Shown piece by piece: positions 37,430 to 37,621 of a stretch of 41,124 nucleotides of DNA. This DNA comes from Sulfurovum sp. GTDB lineage: Bacteria; Campylobacterota; Campylobacteria; Campylobacterales; Sulfurovaceae. The stretch covers positions 1 through 41,124 of the forward strand of contig JAQVHV010000005.1 in NCBI GenBank assembly GCA_028696055.1. Direction: 5' to 3'. The notes under the pieces are model-generated. The model worked only from the letters and a program-made list of their open reading frames with translations, was not told the origin of the DNA and searched no databases. How positions within the stretch are numbered: position 1 is the first letter of the stretch; each line of letters opens with the position of its first letter. A program made the position numbers and the translations under genes.

Positions 37430-37621
37430 TCCATCCGCACCCTCTCTCCCCTGAATCAAAAAATTCCAAAGACAAGCAAACCCACCTGACCATAACCGAT
37501 ACTCTGTTTTTATATTTTAAAAATTAATATAATATAATAAGTATAGTTTTAGATGCTGTCAGTGTTTTAGATGCCCTCCTTGGCATCTCTCAATCAAACC
37601 CAACCTTCCAAGGAGAATCTC
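37430..37621 (+). promoter_or_regulatory. katG promoter and structured leader
   Basis: Two overlapping TATAAT boxes (37528-37533 and 37533-37538) lie in a run of AT (ATTAATATAATATAATAAG) that could also hold a PerR-type operator. The predicted leader of about 77 nt has a direct repeat GTTTTAGATGC (37546-37556 and 37564-37574), a hairpin AGATGCC-CTCCTT-GGCATCT (37569-37588) and CTCCTTGG (37576-37583), which is a perfect complement of CCAAGGAG (37608-37615) that covers the katG ribosome-binding site. Elements are seen directly; regulation is inferred. Confidence 0.55.

Follow-up and report, generated by a model that had tools for sequence, protein, structure and literature searches.

A conserved hairpin and a predicted competing ribosome-site helix in the katG leader of Sulfurovum: a candidate translation-control element

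The window, i.e., the whole 41,124-nucleotide stretch of DNA analysed here from Sulfurovum sp., a sulfur-oxidising marine bacterium (genome G000), carries a katG gene for a catalase-peroxidase, whose leader (L001) is described below and mapped in Table 1. The encoded protein begins with MFDNQ, and its relatives keep MFDN or MFDT. The katG open reading frame opens at 37571, and the equivalent extension hits an in-frame stop in several relatives. Based on the −10 hexamer, transcription of katG is predicted to begin ahead of the hairpin, at about 37545; in a promoter scan, the count of such −10 sites was not above that in shuffled sequences. Fur-family regulators are also encoded, which is compatible with a separate transcriptional control of the katG promoter.

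Table 1. Features of the katG gene and its leader in the window
Feature	Positions	Strand	Basis
Predicted −10 hexamer TATAAT	37533–37538	+	10/12 consensus match; hexamer retained in L002 and L003
Upstream direct repeat GTTTTAGATGC, first copy	37546–37556	+	Outside any conserved device; window genome only
P1 hairpin AGATGCC-CTCCTT-GGCATCT	37569–37588	+	Kept in 11 distinct katG leaders; found by covariance model R1 once per genome
Anti-SD CTCCTTGG, 5′ side of the P2 sequestering helix	37576–37583	+	Perfect 8-nt complement of CCAAGGAG
SD region CCAAGGAG-A-AUCU, 3′ side of P2	37608–37620	+	Partner of 37576–37583 and of AGAU 37569–37572 in the MFE structure
katG (catalase-peroxidase, 725 aa)	37622–39799	+	Pfam peroxidase PF00141, E 4e-71; ATG at 37622

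The hairpin, P1, joins the arms AGATGCC (37569–37575) and GGCATCT (37582–37588) by 7 bp around the loop CTCCTT (37576–37581), and CTCCTTGG consists of this loop together with the two bases that open the 3′ arm. P1 therefore cannot coexist with P2, the helix in which CTCCTTGG pairs with the katG ribosome site CCAAGGAG. All sequence statements in a preliminary description of this DNA are exact at their coordinates, including the perfect complementarity of CTCCTTGG to CCAAGGAG (37608–37615), and its placing of the anti-SD in the hairpin loop stands with the refinement that the anti-SD also takes the two 3′-arm bases. That description had further proposed that the directly repeated GTTTTAGATGC, whose second copy lies at 37564–37574, can compete for the GGCATCT arm from upstream. 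We reject this competitor because not even the two closest relatives have it: at the corresponding position, L002 reads GTTTTTATATACT and L003 GTTTTATCTATCG, both without AGATGC; GTTTTAGATGC is unique to the window genome.

Relatives of katG were collected from 200 related genomes, 34 of which possess one, and from GTDB contigs, and their leaders were read. P1 is shared by 11 distinct katG leaders, all from one family (the Sulfurovaceae KatG clade), conserved in sequence as well as in shape, with the clade leader consensus GGTTTAGATGCC-N6-GGCATCTTTCAATCA...AAGGAG-N-ATG-N-C-ATG. The distance from P1 to the start codon is 53–55 nt in all carriers and stays fixed while the promoter sequences and upstream genes vary among subclades. 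A covariance model of the element (R1) recovers it from 12 of the 175 family genomes, with a single hit in each that always lies at this katG; the other matches in an order-wide sample were weak, and the distant katG leaders of other lineages gave no strong match. In the KatG protein tree, the carriers cluster together except for one sister, L011, and the proteins belonging to L002 and L003 share 94% and 93% identity, respectively, with that of the window. Because of this shared ancestry, the 11 P1 leaders represent few independent cases.

In the sister L011 (genome G064), an IS200-type transposase gene (L011:1000–1416; Pfam Y1_Tnp, E 7e-45) lies directly upstream of katG, and unrelated sequence stands in place of the conserved leader, with predicted SD pairing once again (AUCCUC:GAGGAU, p about 0.025). 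In L013 (L013:1501–1560, genome G042), an in-frame TAG occurs near katG codon 16 behind an intact leader, a candidate for either decay or a sequencing error. A second conserved stretch, roughly TTTAAACGTGAATATNTTTACT, is found upstream of the hairpin in L004, L005, L006, L008, L010, and L013 and is absent in the window lineage; it is probably a promoter or regulator site. Members of another katG lineage (L025, L027, and L029) have a small inverted repeat of another kind just ahead of the start codon, e.g., ATGGATAATTTTTTTCCAT in L027.

In the window, the predicted hairpin-to-SD duplex reaches −15.2 kcal/mol with an AGAU:AUCU extension, which corresponds to p of about 0.02–0.03 when the heads are shuffled and 0.006 when the targets are. 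Tested against shuffled heads throughout, P2 gives p values of 0.018 in L001, 0.000 in L002, 0.010 in L004, 0.016 in L005, 0.018 in L006, 0.032 in L008, and 0.056 in L013, and it is not significant in L003, L007, L010, and L012; among the distant katG leaders, 4 of 79 (about 5%) reach p 0.05. The katG start is also an outlier among the SD-bearing starts of its own genome, ranking 1/167 (G000), 10/514 (G072), and 4/164 (G079) by z-score and 5/167, about 5/514, and 2/164, respectively, by energy, against a background drawn from parts of the three genomes, with genes called by a simple in-house program. In 4 of the 11 leaders (L003, L007/L009, L010, and L012), P2 is weak or absent.

The bases that form P2 differ by subclade. 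In the window lineage, the loop and the 5′ arm are used, whereas in L004, L005, L006, L008, and L013 the loop and the 3′ arm (CAUGGCAUCUUU) pair with the SD–spacer–start region, e.g., AGGAGGAUGUCAUG. When heads and targets are exchanged in a cross-table, the heads of the other subclade pair poorly with the window target (−6 to −10 kcal/mol), whereas own heads reach −15 kcal/mol in the window and −20 kcal/mol in L002. However, the window head still pairs with other targets, and the cross-table is thus suggestive of a replacement of pairing partners rather than proof of compensation. The preliminary description had made its reading depend on conservation of the exact CTCCTTGG:CCAAGGAG pairing in close relatives, and the outcome is divided, since L002 retains this pairing, L003 breaks it, and the other leaders are without it.

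Folding calculations point to an exchange between the two helices. The isolated hairpin region is more stable than expected (z = −2.27, with 2 of 200 shuffles as good), whereas the stability of the whole window leader is not unusual (z −0.2 to −1.2). At equilibrium, P1 is predicted in the window with a probability of 0.07–0.08 and SD pairing with about 0.9 (0.80–0.96 once transcribed); during transcription, the hairpin is predicted to form first and then to be displaced by P2 when the transcript passes 37616. Mutually exclusive SD structures are predicted in the window, L002, L004, L005, L006, and L008 and not in L003, L010, and L012; in L013, P1 is the structure favoured at equilibrium. The two-state switch put forward in the preliminary description is thus upheld in part: mutually exclusive hairpin and SD sequestration are backed by folding, by genome-wide controls, and by two subclades that use different bases, but L003, L007/L009, L010, L012, and L013 fold to the hairpin or without strong sequestration, and no trigger was found.

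The covariation in related katG leaders that the preliminary description had proposed to look for did not appear: on the leader alignment A1, none was significant against the shuffle control, and the P1 pairs showed no clean compensatory change among the aligned leaders. The changes that did occur follow a one-sided pattern, in that all five independent changes at the six inner P1 pairs turn a Watson–Crick pair into G–U, a retention of pairing (5/5) with p 0.004–0.03 under simple substitution models in which transitions are favoured. L012 was left out of this count because it is misaligned in A1; a separate reading of its hairpin, after manual re-registration, brings the tally to 7 of 8 inner-pair changes that lead to G–U. 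This mostly one-sided change to G–U weakly favours selection on P1 as RNA. A DNA operator for a repressor bound between the promoter and the ribosome site would also account for AGATGCC-N6-GGCATCT, which is a perfect inverted repeat of conserved sequence. We nevertheless judge an operator improbable, for the genome contains a single exact copy with near matches barely above background (8 vs. 5 in the control), the start codon lies at a constant distance even though the upstream promoter sequences differ, and inner changes that are nearly all to G–U are unexpected for DNA. A palindrome shared by a DNA regulon was rejected on the same search, which gave no further exact copy before other genes.

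If P1 acts as RNA, it might do so on its own, as an mRNA-stabilising 5′-UTR hairpin or as a landing site for an RNA-binding protein or sRNA, with the SD pairing as a by-product. The presence of P1 in every one of the 11 leaders, even where P2 is lacking, and the conservation of its sequence rather than just its shape speak for such a role; we consider it rather unlikely, however, given that P2 stands out at genome level in three genomes and is formed by different bases in two subclades. A chance meeting of a common hairpin with a fortuitous anti-SD in one genome would fit the perfect 7-bp hairpins that precede a few percent of other genes, as well as the occurrence of the exact anti-SD in two genomes only, but conservation of the hairpin across the clade and recurrence of SD/start pairing in relatives make coincidence a very poor explanation. 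Poorer still is an RNA thermometer: SD occlusion before a catalase-peroxidase gene has a precedent in Yersinia katY (PMC10358904), whereas the SD of the window leader is predicted to be unpaired with a probability of 0.04 at 5 °C and 0.13 at 55 °C, and accessibility is similarly flat in the relatives, for which reason temperature is an unlikely signal.

Other known routes of control were also considered. Rfam yielded nothing at the gathering threshold and only far sub-threshold chance matches, and a riboswitch with a known aptamer was rejected on this account and because what is conserved is a hairpin of 20 nt. An intrinsic terminator or attenuator was likewise rejected, as there is no terminator-like site at 37569–37600 and the hairpin is followed by CTCAATC with no U tract. 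A leader-peptide (uORF) attenuator fails because neither start nor frame is conserved: in L001–L003 the 5′-arm AUG shares the reading frame of katG, in L005/L006 a stop closes it off, in L004 it is replaced by GUG, and in L007/L009 the frame behind it is another one. Control through CsrA or Hfq is unlikely, since neither CsrA (PF02599) nor Hfq (PF17209) was detected in five genomes with searches that were positive in control genomes; for CsrA, it should be noted that G000 is incomplete.

Bistable translational leaders are well known as the expression platforms of riboswitches and attenuators, which employ an anti-SD and an anti-anti-SD. The window leader resembles these in that alternative helices free or hide the SD, whereas it has no aptamer-like domain, its conserved structure being the 20-nt hairpin. 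Among genes of the same function, katY of Yersinia pseudotuberculosis, which is of the KatG type, is controlled by an RNA thermometer (PMC10358904). In both cases the translation of a catalase-peroxidase is, or here would be, controlled by RNA structure around the initiation region, whereas the leader described here belongs to another phylum and has two exclusive helices that are predicted to melt hardly at all between 5 and 55 °C. The Caulobacter katG leader, which has no clear RBS, is activated by the sRNA GsrN via pairing to a G-tract (PMC5869019). It shares with our proposal post-transcriptional control of peroxide defence via the katG 5′ leader, whereas Caulobacter relies on an sRNA, and Hfq was not detected in the five genomes studied here. 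In mycobacteria, the furA–katG transcript is processed at its 5′ end and carries a polypurine stabiliser (PMC2358910); the parallel lies in katG 5′-end features that affect expression, whereas the mechanism there is transcript processing, and the abstract mentions no SD-sequestering hairpin pair. The literature that we searched contained no paper naming both Sulfurovum and katG.

The reading we advance is a lineage-specific katG leader in which the mutually exclusive helices P1 and P2 set, and may regulate, translation, and we consider it about an even bet. According to this mechanism, P1, some 53 nt ahead of the start codon, would form first during transcription and leave the SD free; once the SD is made, the loop and one arm of P1 could instead pair with the SD/start region as P2, which would block ribosome loading and is predicted to win at equilibrium in roughly half of the species. 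Since P1 would come first and P2 would prevail at equilibrium, the race between the two may set the amount of KatG made per message, and may regulate it. We infer the effect on translation, the direction of regulation, and a possible signal that would tip the balance, whereas the hairpin, its conservation, the predicted exclusive pairing, and its outlier strength come directly from computation. A bolder form of this proposal, to which we assign a low probability, is a protein-independent bistable RNA that senses a peroxide-linked signal (a metabolite, a metal, or transcription speed) and thereby frees the katG ribosome site in Campylobacterota in which neither Hfq nor CsrA is detected.

Taken on its own terms, the leader is probably a modest translation-control element and is a candidate addition to a known kind, the SD-controlling mRNA leader, rather than a riboswitch or a thermometer. 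If true, this would be an undescribed leader RNA that controls a main hydrogen-peroxide defence enzyme of Sulfurovum-like bacteria living in redox gradients, whose genomes gave no detection of Hfq or CsrA, and it would provide a small and easily tested case of translation control that gains new pairing partners while its hairpin is retained.
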